The notes under the pieces: generated by a model | Told to the model about the DNA's origin: nothing | Database searches by the model: none | The model's input: the letters and a program-made list of their open reading frames with translations, nothing else | Translations under genes and position numbers: made by a program | In this document: positions 5,317 through 64,000 of the stretch, one piece after another | Layout: each line of letters begins with the position of its first letter | Numbering within the stretch: the stretch's first letter is position 1 | Assembly: GCA_025602915.1 (NCBI GenBank) | Contig: JAHLJZ010000001.1 | Coordinates: 890,335 to 954,334, forward strand | Origin: Paraphysoderma sedebokerense | Taxonomy: Eukaryota; Blastocladiomycota; Physodermatomycetes; Physodermatales; Physodermataceae | Length of the DNA stretch: 64,000 nt | Direction: 5' to 3'

Positions 5317-9613
<4,297 letters not shown>

Positions 9614-28993: not shown

Positions 28994-30617
28994 CTATTTC
29001 GATTTTTGGTTTCTTAATCCCACCGCAATCAACAATGCAACGCTATATTTAAACAACTCTTCCTTTGCCGAAAACAAAAACGCGGCAGTCAGAACGGATT
29101 GGAGCAATTTTGATCCGAGGCCCTTGTATAGCCCTTTGGCGCCTTCCTTTTTAATTATTTTTTGGAAGCCGTCGATGACGGAATTGTAGCGTGCAGATTC
29201 GTCAGATTTACTTTGACGGAGTTGCATTCGCGCTATTGAAAAGATGAGAATAAGTTATCACGTCTGCACTACTTGTGTGAAGAACATTATACCAACATTT
29301 GACGACAATATCTACATTCAATCGATCAAGATGAAAATTTAATCGGTTAATACCACGAATCCTGCAGATGTAGAGGAAGTAATCTTATGTTTGACTTACA
29401 TGGATAAGTAATACCAGTCGCTGTCAATTTACTCAAAGCGCCGAGCACAAAGAAATCAAGGGATCCAAGTTTGGCTCCGCTTTGCGCTCTCCATTTTTCA
29501 ACCCGTCGCTTCATTTGTTCAAAAGCAGTATCTGATAAAGAACGGCAATGTAAGCGAAGAGCAGAACTTCAATAGTGGCAGGGAACGATTTTACATTGAA
29601 TGATAGGATTGATAACTAAGATCAAGGCGGGGATGAGTCCTTGCCAAAGGGAAGCAGGACCATCTTCCTTTATGATAGATAAAAACGTGGATACCGCCGT
29701 TGCTTTCTGGGGCTTTCTTGCCGGCGTCCCTGAAGAGGAAGCTGATTCTTCCAAAGAATCTTTTTTTGTTGTCATACGAGTCTGTTAAAAACAGTTGAAC
29801 AGCCGTCAGTTTTGATTGTATCGTCCCATTCAACCTCAAAAGGATAGACTGAATTCGAAACTTGAAAATATCGTGGCCAAATCAAGTCCGTGAGCCAGAG
29901 GAAAACACATTGCTCTCATTTTGGAAGAAGACCACGAATAGATTAGTGCGGCAAAGGTACGTACATTAACGACCCAAATTGGATTGGTAATGAGGACCGT
30001 GGCGGCTCCAGCGACTGCTCCTGCAGCCATCGATTCTGCCGTTGTCATTCCTCTTTTCTTTGAGGCCGCAAGGAAAGCAGCTTTCACAGCTTCGTACCAG
30101 TAATAATAGACCCCTATAATTAATTTCACAAGTTGGAAAGGTCAATTGCTTTCTTGTGAACTATTTAGGTTATTGCGATAGATACCGTTCGTCACGGCGA
30201 TCCCGAACAGAGCAGAATTCATTCCGCTATATTTGGCGTTAATAACAAATATTAAATTCATAAAGCGAGAGTATCATAAGCCAGTTAGGCCAGTCTTTCA
30301 TCAGGAATTAAAATTGGCCTGAATAAAGGACATACGAGAATAATCCGACTACGCCCTCTGACTGAATAATTTTCTTAATTGCATCTAGGGCTCCTTTGTA
30401 CGAATCCTTTCCTTTGTCTTCCTTCTGAACTTGAAGTCTAGACGATACGGTGATTAGGGGGTAAGTGATCATGGTGGAAACAACTCCACCGCCGGCACCT
30501 GCATTTCATGTATTGAAGTTTTGTTAGAGAGAAATGCCGTATTGGGGCCGCGAAAGAAAGGGCGGTGTGAAAAGAGCGATTATTACCGGCAAGGGCATGG
30601 GCAACATTGTCACTCAT
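28994..30617 (-). CDS. Peroxisomal adenine nucleotide carrier, PMP47/ANT1 type
   Basis: Mitochondrial carrier family (SLC25) protein of the peroxisomal branch, which exchanges ATP for AMP or carries cofactors for fatty-acid activation. The N terminus MSDNVAHALAGAGGGVVSTM with YPLITVSSRLQVQ is characteristic of PMP47. Further repeats show PxD/E-x-x-K/R-derived signatures: AAGAVAGAATVLITNPIWVV in the second, a third near 29200 (LQMQLRQSKSDES, YKGLGSKLLQSVLTAAFLF). Five or more introns break the gene. No peroxisomal targeting motif is expected, since these carriers use Pex19. The gene ends with a Lys-rich tail. Confidence 0.88.
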
Positions 30618-30889
30618 TTTTGATGATATACGGCGAATTGAGGAAAACTAAAATGTGCGGAGACTGTGGGAATGAAGGACAGCCTTTGGTGCAAATGAGT
30701 TTTCAGCGTTTTCATGAGCGGCGCGCGAACAATGGGCCAGGTCGTTTTGTGCCGACATTCATGAATCAACACACGGATGGACCCGAATATTATCATTCCA
30801 AAAGCAGATCTATATTATATACCATACATATGGTCCATTATCAATTTTCAATACAAAGGGGACGGCTTATCACTTAAATACCAGTAACA

Positions 30890-32209
30890 TTATACAGTGA
30901 CTTTCAAGCTCTTCCACGCTCCAGCCAAAACGTCAAAATGTTCGGGCTTTCTTACAGCAATGCGAACATATGTAGGCCTGTCGTAGCCATGTACACCTGC
31001 TCGAACAGGAACACCGGCTTTTTTGGCGGCGTCAACGGCAGCATTAGCGACAGCAACAGATTTCATATCAATCCAAACCCACGACAGGAAAGAGTGACCA
31101 TGAAATACCCAACGGGGAATGCCAAGTTGAGCAGACAGATCATCAGAGATTTTGACCAATTTTTCAACAGTTTGCTTTCTCCAAACCGACGTATGCTTCC
31201 ATGTATCTTGAAGATATTTTTCGTCGTTTACAACAGCGGAAAGGAAATGAAGAGCAAGAATGTTGACGCTCCAGGGCACTTGATGTTTTTTCAGGGCAAT
31301 GGTGTGTTCTGGTGTAGGGCAAACAATGGATCCAAGTCGGATACCAGTACATGACCATAACTTAGTCCACGAATGGATTACATAGATCGAGATGTTACGG
31401 GTCTTGTACATGTCTAAGATGAACTCATCTTGAGAAGTAAGGGAATCGTCACGGAATTTCGAAGAATTCCACGGTTGCATCGATTCGTCTGATAGAATAA
31501 AAGAGTTGAATAATGTGAGTAGAAAACTTCAACATTAGACATGTACACCGTCACTCGTACCGACTACCACGACACCATTGTCTTCCACGTTTTCACTTAT
31601 CCATTTCTTGATCTCTTCAATGTTCATATATTCTCCAGTCGGATTATTTGGATTCACAACACATGTCAACGTGGTGCGTTGAGAGGCTTTCGGAGCGAGA
31701 ATTTGATGATTCCCCGCGGATTTAGTAGAGCGTTCGTATTCTTTGTACTAAACGCCAGAAACACTTTAATGAGAACGAATGTTTATGCTACGAATTTGAA
31801 TTGTTGCTTACCTGAACATCCCATGGACCAGGTTTCCAAGTTCCACTGGGTGCTTTCCTAATGACCAAGTCAATCAATTCACTGGCACCATTGCCTAGCA
31901 CCAATCTTTTTTCATTTCTGCGGAACTGCTCCTCTACTGGCCACAAAAATCGAGCGAGGTCAGAACGTGCGGGCTCTTGGTCGGATGGAGGATAATGACA
32001 AATATGTCTAACCTGTCGATTATAAGAATGTTGTCGTTAGATTAACAGCATATTCATACAAAAATTTGATAACTTACAGCCCCCATTACAGCGTCCAAAC
32101 CAGACTTCGGGGTCCCAAAGCAGTTTGTTGTCACGCTGAAATCTTCAACAAAATTTTCGAGAGAGCTCCATTCCTGGCCACCATGGTATTCAGATACTGG
32201 TGCACCCAT
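30890..32209 (-). CDS. PLP-dependent class I/II aminotransferase (HisC/CobD-like)
   Basis: Fold-type I PLP enzyme of about 400 aa from four exons. The expected active-site elements are in order: NPNNPTGEY (Asn that contacts PLP), VVVVDES (Asp bonded to the pyridine nitrogen), SWTKLWSCTGIRLG (Schiff-base Lys after SWT) and YVRIAVRKP (substrate carboxylate Arg). The closest layout is histidinol-phosphate aminotransferase or threonine-phosphate decarboxylase-like proteins, but substrate cannot be read from sequence. The start at 32209 (MGAPVSEYHGG) is preferred; it lies divergent to the Spartan gene with about 195 bp between them. Confidence 0.85.
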
Positions 32210-32403
32210 GATATTATGTACTATTAAATGAAATAAGGTCTGGTAGAAAAGTGGGAAGGGAATGGGAAATGTTTGTTTACTGATTCCTTTGTTGACGCCA
32301 AAATCGCAAACAATCAGTCGTTCATGAATTCGGAGTTGCCATCTTGATTTGTGGTCGTGTTCAATCGGCCCGGCGCTCATCGACAAATGACAAATGATAT
32401 GTT

Positions 32404-33901
32404 ATGACCCCGTCTGGGCATTCACCTTCGCATCCATTAAGTTATAGCTTTCCAAGCGACAAGAACAATGTCTTATGCGAAGCTTCTGCAGAAAAAGCAA
32501 AAGGAATGTCGCAAGGTTTAAGGTATCGTCCTGAATGGAAGGAGAATGAAGAAGAAGATCCATATAGCCTTGATCTCGATTTGGCTAAAAAGCTTCAGGA
32601 AGAAGAGAATGCTATAGCAAGTCGGAGCCAGTTGGATGATGCTATGAGGAGGGAAGATGAAGAGTTGGCTCGAAGGTTGGCAACAGAGGAAGAGATGCAG
32701 TTTTGTATCATGTCAGCATCTTCGTCTTCAACAACCGATTACGCCGAGTTCGATTTACATTCCTTATTCCTTCATTACAACGATTTATACTTTGGAGGGA
32801 AATTATCCGGATGCGGTGCGTCTCTGTCTGTATTCTATCTTCATGTACGAAAATTGCTGATCGTCGCTGTCTTAATCACCCGGCAGAGGTTCGTTGGTCT
32901 TCTAAGATGACTTTGTGTGCTGGACAGTGCCACTATCACCGGGCTTCGGGTTACTGTTCTATTCGTCTCTCAGAGCCTCTCCTGAAGTTTCGACCAACAT
33001 CCGACAGTGTAAATACATTATTGCATGAAATGGTAATGTGGGTTGCCAAACGAAAATGTGACGAAAATGTCTGACTTCGTTCTCATCAATTTCAGATACA
33101 TGCTTTCCTTTTTGTAACCGACGGAAATGACGATCACGATGGTCACGGTCCAAACTTTCAGATGCATATGGCACGAATCAATCAAAAAGCAGGAACAACA
33201 ATTACAATCTATCACAATTTCCACGACGAAGTTGATCATTATCGCACACATATTTGGAAGTGCGACGGCCCATGTTCGAACCGACCGCCCTACTTTGGAA
33301 TTGTTAAAAGATCGATGAATCGGCCCCCTCAGCCTGCGGATTCTTGGTATCAGCGACATGTTGAAACTTGGTAAAAATAGTTAAAAAAATCAATACGGAA
33401 AATGTCCTCAGTGGTTAATTGTGTTTTTATTGTAGTGGCGGTACTTTCACGAAAATAAGTGAACCCAACATGAGTGAAAAAGCGAATATCAAAAAGTCGC
33501 GGAAAAGGAAGTCAGATGAGTTAGATGCCCGCGAGAGTTCAAAACCAAGGCAAAAACCTGAGAAACAGGAAGCGTTCAAGAGTGTAGATATCCGTAAATG
33601 GTTTGGATCGAATAACACTAGAGAATCACGACCGCATGATAAGGGAAAGGAGACAACTCAATGCGAGGAACGCCAAGTCTCTGCTTCTGGTTCCATTGAA
33701 ACGAATGCCGCTGATGCAATGCCGAATCCAAAATTGGAATTAGGAAGGACTGAGGTGGTAATTCTATCTGACTCCGATGAGGAAGATATTGGGAATACAC
33801 CGGGTCTACTATCAAAGGATGACAAGTTTGTGCAATGTCCGGTTTGCTCAGTCCATGTCTTAAGCGAAGAAATAAATTCGCATCTGGACAGATGCCTTTA
33901 A
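32404..33901 (+). CDS. SPRTN: Spartan-type DNA-protein crosslink metalloprotease (SprT family)
   Basis: Four exons (32404-32815, 32887-33032, 33096-33370, 33436-33901) give 432 aa; a start at 32506 is an alternative. The SprT domain opens with FDLHSLFLHYNDLYFGGKL; the catalytic motif HEMIHAF (H184, E185, H188, with H203 in DGHGPNF) is completed by the splice at 33032/33096. A zinc-ribbon follows (WKCDGPCSNRPPYFG ... HVETCGGTFTKI). The C terminus is charged and disordered, with a SUMO-interacting-like stretch (VVILSDSDEED), and ends in a UBZ4 ubiquitin-binding finger (CPVCSVHVLSEEINSHLDRC). This domain order is that of animal SPRTN rather than yeast Wss1. It would degrade proteins crosslinked to DNA during replication. 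Confidence 0.93.
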
Positions 33902-33962
33902 GATAATGTAATATAAAATATACATATATATTGCCATTATTGTTACATAACAATTAAATGGT

Positions 33963-36027
33963 CTAATTAACGCCGAATAATCTAACTAAGACTTTCCTAT
34001 AACCATCCGTTATTGAGTCTTGCTCCGTTTCATACAACGCCATCAATACCCCTGTAGCTAGGCAAAAGTACAGAGGTTCGCCAAACCTCTTCTGCGTCAA
34101 AACAGTACTAATTAGTCGCATCGGTAGACTCTGTGTTTTAGACGGTGAAGGAATATATCTGTATTGAACCAGACATTTATATGCACTTTCGAGTGCACGC
34201 GGCATAACGTACAGTCCTAGTTCAAGTCGACGACCCGGTGGCTCGATTAGAACACACAGGCCAGAAAGCATGCCGTTGATGAAATATCTAAGAAGCATAT
34301 AAATTAGTCAGATTTTTGTCGCCGTAGACGAATTTACAGATGGACTTACATCGGCAACTTGTCTCTACCTAATAAGCGTCTTTGATAACATGTTGATACC
34401 CAGGCAATGGTGACATACAGACTCAAGAACAAAGATGACCTTATAGTGGATTTGATAAACCTCAACAGATATGTGTGCGGCCTAATGAGAGATTGTGAGT
34501 TTGACGGTACTGTGATCCTTCTTTAAAAAAGAGATTGATTACGAACTGTTTGAGCATCTTTTTCCAACTGTACACTAAAATCATAATTGCATTCAATGGG
34601 GCATACAGACCAGCACTTCTTCTCATTGCTTTCCACCAACACTGGAGAACGAATATAACAGGTCAATGACAAAGAATATGACAAAATTAGGCCTGTAAAC
34701 CATACCAGAAGTCCATAACCAGTACAGGACGGAGTTTCCGGGTGTATGAGTGTACAAAGGGCGAATTTGTACTGCTGTGAGCAAAACTTTTGTATCACAT
34801 TTTCATCAATAAGTTTGTCGATGGAAGATTGAGAGCTAGGACGCCGACTCCACAATTCTAATCCTTCTTTGACGAGAACAGCTTGCGGCGTTGAAAGATC
34901 TTCCAGGGGCATCTTCACAGGTACAGGATGCTTCGAGGCCAGCTGTAGAAGTTGACCGGTTCTTTCCATGAAGGGCCGAGTAAATTTTCCCAAATCATCC
35001 CTTCGGCCGGAATGGGTCAGGAGGAATGAATAATATTGAGGGTTCAACGATTCCGGCTCAGCAATGAAAGAATACAGAATTTGAGACGAAGACAACATCA
35101 TGATGATTGTGCCGGCAGATTTGCATAGAAAATTATCCAATTTGTCGCTAAATGAATAATCTTTGAGCCTTTGGAGTGAGGGAAGTGCTCCAAGGTCCTG
35201 CCGTTTTGTCAAAGCATTAGAATCAGTCCCGAAGCCACTGTCTGATCTCAATAATCGCTCTTGTTCTTCTTCCTCTTCCTTATCCTTTTCTTGCAGCCGA
35301 TATTCTCGCCATTTTTTCATCAATGATCTCGTCAGAAATTGACTACAACGGGTGAATGCATATAGAGCTATGGCAGTTCTACGTGAGCTATTCTTATCCA
35401 GTAAAATTGACAGCCCTGCTAAACTGCCAGCGGCGAAAGTGACCAATCGGGTTTTTGGTGTGGAGAGTTTTCGACGGAGGAAACACAAGAGAGCTTTATA
35501 TGAGCTCGTAAAAGTTGCTAAAAATAATGCAAAACTGATAGTGTCTCGGCCTAAGTGTTTTCTTAGAATCGATGGTCTTTTATATCAAGAAAGGTTAATG
35601 CTGCGCAATGAATTAAATAGGCAAGAATGTGGCAATCCATACTTTTTAAGCATTCTCAATGTAAGTACTGCTGGAGCAATCGCAACCAAATATTTTATCC
35701 CATACGAAACTGCAAAGGTTTTGAAGAATCCTCGCAGACAATTCTGGGAGCAATTGCCTCTATGCTTGCAAAAGGCTTTTGGAAACGCCTGATCCCGGCC
35801 TAATTTTTGGAGATTCTGACTGTAATTGGAATGAGAATTAGAGAATCTGAAGTGCCAATGGGTAAACAGAAAGCATACCTTGACAATTTCCTCAAGTTTT
35901 CATGAAGAGAACGGAGGCTCTTGATAACTCTTTCCGTTTCCTCATCTGTTAACACAACAGATATCAGGCCAGTAACGAACCCGATAGCGTCCGACGTAAA
36001 AGACTGAATGAGCTTCGGGTCAGTCAT
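33963..36027 (-). CDS. TMEM135-like membrane protein
   Basis: Multi-exon gene. Landmarks follow TMEM135: a cysteine-rich segment CKHRGNCSQNCLRGFFKTFA, then a hydrophobic region VAIAPAVLTL, FTSSYKALLCFLRR, FAAGSLAGLSILLDKNSS and TAIALYAFTRCSQFLTR, which are repeated-module hallmarks of this family. Further cysteine/hydrophobic modules lie in the C-terminal part (CTLIHPETPSCTGYG; ALESAYKCLVQYRYIP ... EPLYFCLATGVLMALYE). TMEM135 proteins act in peroxisomal and mitochondrial dynamics and lipid metabolism in animals. A basic/acidic linker (KDKEEEEEQERLL) splits the halves. It is divergent from the USP gene. Confidence 0.82.
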
Positions 36028-59219: not shown

Positions 59220-59724
59220 ATGTCAGATTCCCCTCCCTCCCCGTCCTCATCTCGCAAGAGACGGCTCGCCGACAGAAAGAAATCGGCCAAGGCTTCTCTA
59301 GCTGCATTGAAGGAAGCGAGAAACTCCGGTTTGTCAAGGCTAGAGCAATACCAGGTCTGTTCGGGTCGTTTCATTATTCCCGATTGGCAGGCCACAATCT
59401 TCATGGGTTCTAATGCATCAATTCACACGGCCTACAGGTCGCCGAGGACAATCCCTTATACGATGAAGTCAATGAAGATGACTACAAACGAATCGTAAAG
59501 CAGAGACTAAAGGAGGACGACTTTGTGGTTGACGATGATGGTAGTGGATACGCCGACTTGGGATTTGACGATTGGAACACAAAACAGTACTACTCGGACG
59601 ACGACGAGGACACGAAAAAGGGCCGAAAGAGTATGCGTCCTTATACACTCTTGGTTCGAATTGCATTCATTCATATCATCTTTCTTTAGATCCCGAAAAG
59701 AAAAATCACTCAGATTATATCAAT
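59220..59724 (+). CDS. POLA1: DNA polymerase alpha catalytic subunit, N-terminal exons only (broken or chimeric)
   Basis: Three exons (59220-59354, 59438-59630, 59690-59724), 121 codons. The N-terminal domain matches polymerase alpha: SSRKRRLADRKKSAKASLAA, NPLYDEVNEDDYKRIVKQRL, DDFVVDDDGSGYADLG and an acidic DDDEDTKKGRK tract. The exon 3 end is phase 0 (ATC AAT followed by gtatgt). Instead of the rest of the polymerase, the sequence continues into the intron and exon 2 of VPS4. A 1,400-residue polymerase is essential, so an intact gene must lie elsewhere, or this join is an assembly error. Confidence 0.85.
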
Positions 59725-59876
59725 GTATGTCACTTGATTCTTCAGCATTCAAATCCGGATGCGTAAAGCCAAACAGTATTTTGGTCAATGAGTTAACTTT
59801 TAATGTATACTCGTGCGGCCCGACTATTCTTAATTTAACCGACGTTCATTTATGCTAATCTTTTCTACCATTACAG
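59725..59876 (+). repeat. POLA1 intron 3, introner-like copy of VPS4 intron 1
   Basis: 152 nt, gtatgtcac to ccattacag, six substitutions from VPS4 intron 1, all in the first 100 bases. The last 52 bases are identical to the VPS4 intron, which is where the sequence turns into the VPS4 copy. Confidence 0.8.
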
Positions 59877-61766
<1,890 letters not shown>

Positions 61767-61950
61767 AAAGTGTTGCGAGAATTTTCTTGTAACATGAATG
61801 ACGTTAATAATTAGGATAAATCGACCTTCTTGTCGTTGTCATGAGCCCTGTAAATCAACAATTCAAATACAATCGTATCTACAGCATACTATAAGTTAAA
61901 TCAACTTTATCATCTTTAATTTTCAATCATATTAATCATGCAGATAAAAA

Positions 61951-64000
61951 TTAATTTACAATACTGGTTCCAAATAATTTATACCGTACAACCCAATCTC
62001 TTTCATCTTCCCCTTCTCTCGTTCCACCTTCTTTACCTGGAACTCTATAACTCACCACACAAACATCAAACCATCGATTCGCTCCCGAAAATGACACCGC
62101 CTCATCGTCATGTATATTATCCGTCTCATCGTTGTTATTACCTGATTGACCCAATTCATGATCCACGCTTTGTAATAGGTGCGCGTTTATGTTATTATCT
62201 GTGAAACTTGAGGTCGATGAAGTAAATGACGAAGCGGACGATTCCGGAGTGGTATTCGTAGACTGGTTAAACAATTTAGATAAATATCGGCCAAGTTTTT
62301 GCAGTCCCCGGGAGTCGTTGTATAAACTGTAACAAAATGAATATTAAATGAATGCATAGCATGAATAAAACGATCAAAGTACTTACTTGGTCGGTTTTAA
62401 TCCTCTCAAAAATTGAGTCTATTGAAAGGTTAGTCAATTCGACAATGGTGATTCTTTTTGAAAATAAGGGCAAAGAAAATCTATATGTACCGCTTCATCC
62501 CCGTGTATTATGATGGGTAGATATTCTCCAGAATCATCAGTTACGAGGATAGAAAACATAAAGATATAGGCTTGATCATTTAATAGCTGTTTACATGTGG
62601 GACAGGATTCCGGTGGATTTGGTGACGGTGGAAAACTATCAACAGTTTTACGTATGAGTGACGCTTGATGGATATAAGTATGGGATAATCAATAGCAATT
62701 GAATGTACCTTTGTTGGCAAGGTTTGCAGAACGGCCGAGTTAATTCTTGAAGATTAGTTGGTTGGAAAGCCATCAACTTCACTTTGAGTCGATATTTATT
62801 GGGAACCTGTGAATAGTGGTTAAGACCGTTATTCTAAATGCAAGTTAATAGACTATTTTACCGTTTCAGACTCTAAAACCGACTTGATGGATGTGACAAT
62901 CTGGGAAGGATGGGCGATATCTGAATGTCAAAGTGAGTTCAAGTCTTGATCCAACTCTAGGAAATCCGGTTCTTCATTACCTGTAACAGCTCGGCGGATA
63001 TCTTCCGCACGAGACGGCAACTGTTTGCGTAACAATTCGGCCCTTCGCCTGAAGCAGTCTAATAAGCACCAAAAATGCAGAATTGGGGAAGCGTAATCAC
63101 TTACCTATTCAAATCCTTGATTAGGGGGTGAGTAGCATCTAAAACTTCAACCGTCATATCTTTTCGGCCGGGGCCTCTGTTACCATGCAACACAGCTTCA
63201 ACCATTCCCCCATTTTTGGAATACTTCGCTTTCACCCCAGACAACTTTATATACTGACCCTCCCGAAACGATCGACTAATTTCGGCGTTGTCGTCCCAAA
63301 ATACTACTTGTAAGACCTGACTAGATTCTAGCTCAATGGGACCTAGCTGATACGTTTCAATCGACCTGTAGAGCGAGATAGCAAAGACTAAGTCGAGGAT
63401 TGATCATGCTACTCTATACCAATGTAAAGACTTCCTCGAGAAGCGAGTTTGACGTAAAATCCGTCACTCGGATAAAATTCATATTCGGTTTCGCAAAATC
63501 TATATTGACAATCTGAACAATCTATGTGCCATCAAATGAGATAAGTCAAACCACTGATAAAGAATCAAACTAGAACTACTTACATGACACACAAGTTCAA
63601 AAGTCACACCAACTTGAATTTCCGAAATCTTCAACAAAGGCCTCGAAGATTTTTTCAGATTTTGTGCACCATCTTTCGGATTGGCATTTTCTTTTGATAC
63701 AATATTCTCAGAGTCAGACGTGAATAAAGTAATCTTTGAAGGCTCCTCTGCTTCAATCGAAGATTTGGAAAGCGGATTCGCCGGTTCGCTTGACCACCAT
63801 TCTCTCAGTTCTCTGACTAAACATTCATGTCGATTCGATACGATGGGATAGCATTTTCCTCTAGTGTCACATGCTCGAGGTTTGAAGCTACTTCCAACTT
63901 CTCCTGAAAAGACCATGAAACTAGTTCGCCAATTCGAGAGTCCTTGAAGTTTGTCCCCGTGTGTCTGAATCTATGGCATCCCAAAGAAACAAAATCAGCA
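61951..64000 (-). CDS. POT1: POT1 copy B, cut off by the window end
   Basis: C-terminal and central part of POT1, identical to copy A (7564-9613). Includes the zinc-ribbon and C-terminal FGTS end and part of the second OB region. The N-terminal exon encoding GVIVSYKEP would lie beyond 64000. Confidence 0.85.

Follow-up and report, generated by a model that had tools for sequence, protein, structure and literature searches.

The POLA1–VPS4 feature found at the right end of contig C1 of the Paraphysoderma sedebokerense assembly (27.3 Mb, 195 contigs) is very probably not real and represents an ordinary assembly artefact. We place at about 0.91 the probability that a false join was made at this contig end and that the VPS4–POT1 tail following POLA1 is a false 4.3 kb extension. 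The DNA investigated, referred to here as the window, is the 64,000-nucleotide stretch comprising bases 890335–954334 of C1. The gene names POLA1, VPS4 and POT1 are based on Pfam and PDB matches, and those proposed in the initial annotation from the letters alone agree with the Pfam domains detected: DNA_pol_alpha_N (PF12254, E 2.9e-24) in POLA1, MIT (E 3.1e-25) in the VPS4 fragment and POT1PC (E 1.5e-11) in the minus-strand POT1 fragment. The features on which the analysis depends are the following, in window coordinates.

5317–5337, plus strand: VPS4 exon 1, genuine copy (MSTDFLN).
5333–9613, plus strand: genuine original of the duplicated DNA; it starts at the end of VPS4 exon 1, carries the VPS4 sequence beyond it and includes a minus-strand part of POT1.
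59220–59354, plus strand: POLA1 exon 1 (MSDSPPSPSSS...), beginning with an in-frame ATG; Pfam PF12254 covers residues 27–91 (exons 1–2).
59438–59630, plus strand: POLA1 exon 2, recognised by Pfam PF12254 and by alignment to solved polymerase alpha chains; found at no other place in the genome.
59631–59689, plus strand: POLA1 intron 2, overlapping the end of contig C5 from 59639 on.
59639–59705, plus strand: overlap with the terminal bases of C5 (66/67 bp; C5 729145 down to 729080, minus strand).
59690–59705, plus strand: opening 16 nt of POLA1 exon 3, with which the sequence shared with POLA1 on C5 ends.
59706–59719, plus strand: 14-nt junction filler, not above chance in its likeness to VPS4 or POLA1 DNA.
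59720–64000, plus strand: second copy of the VPS4 region (without most of exon 1) and of part of POT1, probably false, reaching the last base of C1.
59725–59876, plus strand: second copy of VPS4 intron 1, with 6 substitutions in its first 100 bases and 0 in its last 52.

When the window was compared with itself (blastn, E up to 1e-5), a single repeat pair was detected, 5333–9613 and 59720–64000, aligned over 4281 bp at 99.86% identity with 6 substitutions and 0 indels. VPS4 enters the duplicated stretch with the final 5 nt of its exon 1, and a minus-strand portion of POT1 is also included. The two copies lie ~54 kb apart, both on C1; the earlier observation that VPS4 exon 2 and POT1 are repeated from 54 kb upstream is thus borne out. 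All six substitutions (59745, 59755, 59756, 59775, 59780 and 59824; four transitions and two transversions) are located in the first 105 of the 4281 positions, a distribution with a chance probability of ~2e-10. These first 105 bp differ from the source by 5.7%, and the 4176 bp past the last difference are identical in the two copies. Within the 152 bp of VPS4 intron 1 (59725–59876 and 5338–5489), alignment reproduced the previously noted 94% identity over the first 100 bases and 100% over the last 52. C1 is exactly 954334 bases long and the right edge of the window is its last base; the second copy has no right flank, the contig ending inside it.

Searching the genome with 59400–60400 returned five matches. 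Besides the query and its source copy, these were two diverged segments of C170 and the terminal bases of C5, which match 59639–59705 on the minus strand, C5 ending at 729145. Read from its end inward on this strand, C5 completes POLA1 intron 2, enters exon 3 and from there departs from the C1 sequence; C1 has one extra C relative to C5 in the run 59692–59694. The remaining POLA1 exons, which the initial annotation had proposed seeking in the assembly, are therefore present at the end of C5. When exons 1–2 of C1 are joined to exons 3–5 of C5, an open frame of 380 codons results; exon 3 as it stands on C5 continues the reading frame of exon 2 without stops, which appear if it is shifted by one base. 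Alignments of the joined product to chains 8b9a_J (query 26–380, chain 10–371, E 1.6e-12) and 8d96_C (query 8–187, chain 16–190, E 3.6e-11) both span the join, the alignment to the polymerase alpha chains being loose around the join itself. Both chains are named DNA polymerase alpha catalytic subunit; they are the yeast and human proteins. In genome searches, exon 2 is found on C1 only (the query starts at 59400 and so covers POLA1 downstream of exon 1) and C5:723100–729099 is single copy, on C5 only. Combined, the rest of POLA1 at the end of C5, the 66/67 bp overlap, the open joined frame and the alignment to polymerase alpha suggest that C1 most likely continues into C5, and that POLA1 is most likely present once in the assembly, interrupted at the break between these contigs.

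The junction does not have the structure first attributed to it. Rather than the first three POLA1 exons breaking exactly at an intron shared with VPS4, two whole exons and only 16 nt of the third (59690–59705) are present. Identity with the C5 continuation stops at 59705, inside exon 3 and 19 nt upstream of the VPS4 intron; after the 14-nt filler, VPS4 identity sets in at 59720, which leaves five nt of match ahead of the intron. Ungapped identity of the filler is 5/14 to VPS4 and 4/14 to POLA1 on C5, neither above chance, and a 29-mer spanning it occurs once in the genome when up to 3 mismatches are allowed. No shared repeat was found at the junction. The chimeric POLA1 frame remains open into VPS4 exon 2, as would be the case for approximately one join in three. 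The chimeric residues preceding the intron, HSDYIN, are similar by eye to STDFLN of VPS4, a likeness that supports a diverged VPS4 template a little. A reading of the filler itself as diverged VPS4 exon 1 is not supported by the DNA, its 5/14 ungapped identity being reached by 27% of random 14-mers.

A second, intact VPS4 that could have donated the diverged 105 bp was sought at both the DNA and the protein level. The DNA search, in which the best candidates were scored, detected none among its four matches, on C1 and C170; of the 19 protein matches, again with the best candidates scored, those covering MIT lie on C1 and C170, the latter being too diverged (73–82%) to have served as donor. Degenerate partial copies of the 5' part of VPS4 are arranged in tandem on C170 between 2695 and 3505, as follows.

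C170, 2695–2905: exon 3 piece (~75%).
C170, 2923–3153: end of exon 1, intron 1 and exon 2.
C170, 3396–3505: second exon 3 piece.

The right end of C170 (15.8 kb) matches stretches of the starts of C9, C11, C16 and C18, which in turn share sequence with the telomere-like start of C5. Bases 1–48 of C5 consist of telomere-like repeats, mostly of the 5-bp unit CCTAA/TTAGG, short blocks of which recur within the next 300 bp of C5 and at the starts of C16 and C18. The VPS4 pieces on C170 are probably a subtelomeric VPS4 pseudogene.

A false join could have arisen as follows. In the genuine chromosome, C1 would be followed by C5 in reverse complement. A single read or graph path may have linked POLA1 exon 3 to the VPS4 locus through the 14-nt filler and extended C1, adding 4281 bp of already assembled VPS4–POT1 sequence and blocking the true join to C5. 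As no repeat is shared at the junction, the join would be better explained by a chimeric molecule or read than by the assembler having crossed a repeat. The six substitutions, like the extra C and the filler, fall within 59692–59824, a segment which, having no genuine spanning reads, may have been left uncorrected by consensus polishing. Against this last step, the six differences are all substitutions, which looks more like a diverged template; raw long-read errors are expected to include indels. A short piece of diverged VPS4 template, absent from the assembly, would explain the six substitutions too.

This last consideration also bears on the least improbable of the alternatives, a real rearrangement carried by one haplotype, nucleus or subpopulation, in which VPS4–POT1 was copied into POLA1 exon 3 or became joined to it. 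The other haplotype, with POLA1 intact, would run from C1 to C5, and the assembler would have followed the rearranged branch. A heterozygous breakpoint would be expected to give a fork such as that observed at 59705, one branch being the C1 tail and the other C5, and the short filler is also in keeping with it, short filler being common at end-joining junctions; divergence by substitution only near the join and the VPS4-like HSDYIN likewise suit a second template. However, the 4176 identical bp demand a very recent event, yet the first 105 bp differ by 5.7%; the tail ends with the contig and has no flank of its own, and duplication at contig ends is common in this assembly. We therefore regard such a rearrangement as unlikely. 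Slightly less likely again is its stronger form, a recent in-frame POLA1–VPS4 fusion in one haplotype or subpopulation, combining the POLA1 N terminus with the MIT and AAA parts of VPS4 and existing beside an intact POLA1.

It is very unlikely that a duplication, tandem or dispersed, has become fixed and disrupts POLA1 in the organism. In its favour, one contig carries two near-identical copies separated by 54 kb, and the degenerate VPS4 exon copies on C170 indicate earlier copying of VPS4 pieces in this genome. Conversely, C5 carries the exon 3 continuation together with 66 bp reaching back into intron 2, which indicates that an unbroken exon 3 was present in the sequenced DNA; the genome searches returned exon 2 and the C5 end once each, and POLA1 is essential. 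Ectopic recombination, or an assembler switch, between intron copies common to POLA1 and VPS4 would account for divergence confined to the 5' part of the intron but is scarcely credible, as the intron was found at only two places in the genome, both VPS4 copies of the window, the terminal 10,046 bp of C5, where POLA1 lies, match it over no more than 14 bp, and POLA1 identity ends 19 nt upstream of it, in exon 3. Thus, of the two origins initially proposed, recombination or an assembly chimera, the inclination towards artefact is strongly supported by the C5 continuation, the contig end, the open joined frame and its alignment to polymerase alpha, whereas the intron-switch mechanism is opposed by the absence of the intron from the C5 end.

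Perfect duplication is not confined to the right end of C1. The starts of C1–C20 (n = 20) were fetched and five of these, C1, C3, C7, C8 and C13, were searched against the genome; the right ends examined among C1–C20 were those of C1 and C5. Three of the five starts are wholly duplicated, being identical over 6000/6000 bp to C85 (C1), C9 (C7) and C151 (C13). For C1 and C85, identity reaches the end of C85, giving an unmerged end-to-end overlap of 6052 bp. Probes shared by C13 and C151 are identical (127/127, and 60/60 at the end of C151); the C13 start has many further matches at 69–77% and hence lies in a repeated region. The C7 start matches the interior of C9 on the minus strand, with probes at 8, 12, 30 and 50 kb identical (101/101) and those at 100, 200 and 400 kb not, an identity that reflects a large duplication, either false or real and recent. 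The C3 start is a patchwork of pieces at 83–99% and the C8 start shows repeats at 75 and 90% only. The one interior stretch searched, 30000–35999 of the window, is single copy (0/1 duplicated). Perfect duplication at contig ends is therefore frequent in this assembly and not universal, the C5 end, C8 and C3 being exceptions.

Other repeats were observed in passing. C1:884061–884671 and C1:884748–885358 are identical over 611 bp within a repeat array whose members are mostly ~80% alike. The C14 start contains dense direct repeats at 73–89% identity between 2300 and 5630, and its first 6 kb has a G+C content of 38%, below that of the other contig starts fetched.

If the join at the end of C1 is false, this assembly would give wrong gene models, copy-number calls and fusion claims for POLA1, VPS4 and POT1, and joining C1 to C5 would probably be the correct repair. 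As several contig ends carry long perfect duplicates, duplications or fusions at contig ends of the assembly should be distrusted until confirmed by reads.

At first sight, one intron in two unrelated genes resembles the action of introners, near-identical introns spread among genes. The likeness does not extend further: the POLA1 end on C5 is without the intron, the search found no further copies, and the intron was not found at intact loci of unrelated genes, its two places both being VPS4. The unmerged contig-end overlaps of this assembly are likewise identical: C1/C85 over 6052 bp, C13/C151 over 6000 bp and at probes as far as the end of C151, and C7/C9 over 6000 bp and at probes to 50 kb. 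The VPS4 tail differs from them in that, beyond a false junction, it overlaps an internal part of the contig to which it belongs; among the three overlaps, a contig interior is also involved in C7/C9 only. A further parallel is with false duplications in which one gene acquires exons of a different gene, a class of assembly error described in PMC9516828. The cases outlined there are from vertebrates and were classed by read depth and k-mers, whereas the present one is judged from assembly sequence alone. The resemblance to the false chimeric gene gain outlined in that account lies in three features: an apparent fusion of exons of one gene to another, here with POLA1 exons 1–2 and 16 nt of exon 3 joined to VPS4; the position of the duplicate at a contig end, extending to the last base of C1; and the presence in another part of the assembly, the end of C5, of what is probably the genuine arrangement, where the overlap, the open frame and the alignment reveal an unbroken continuation of POLA1.
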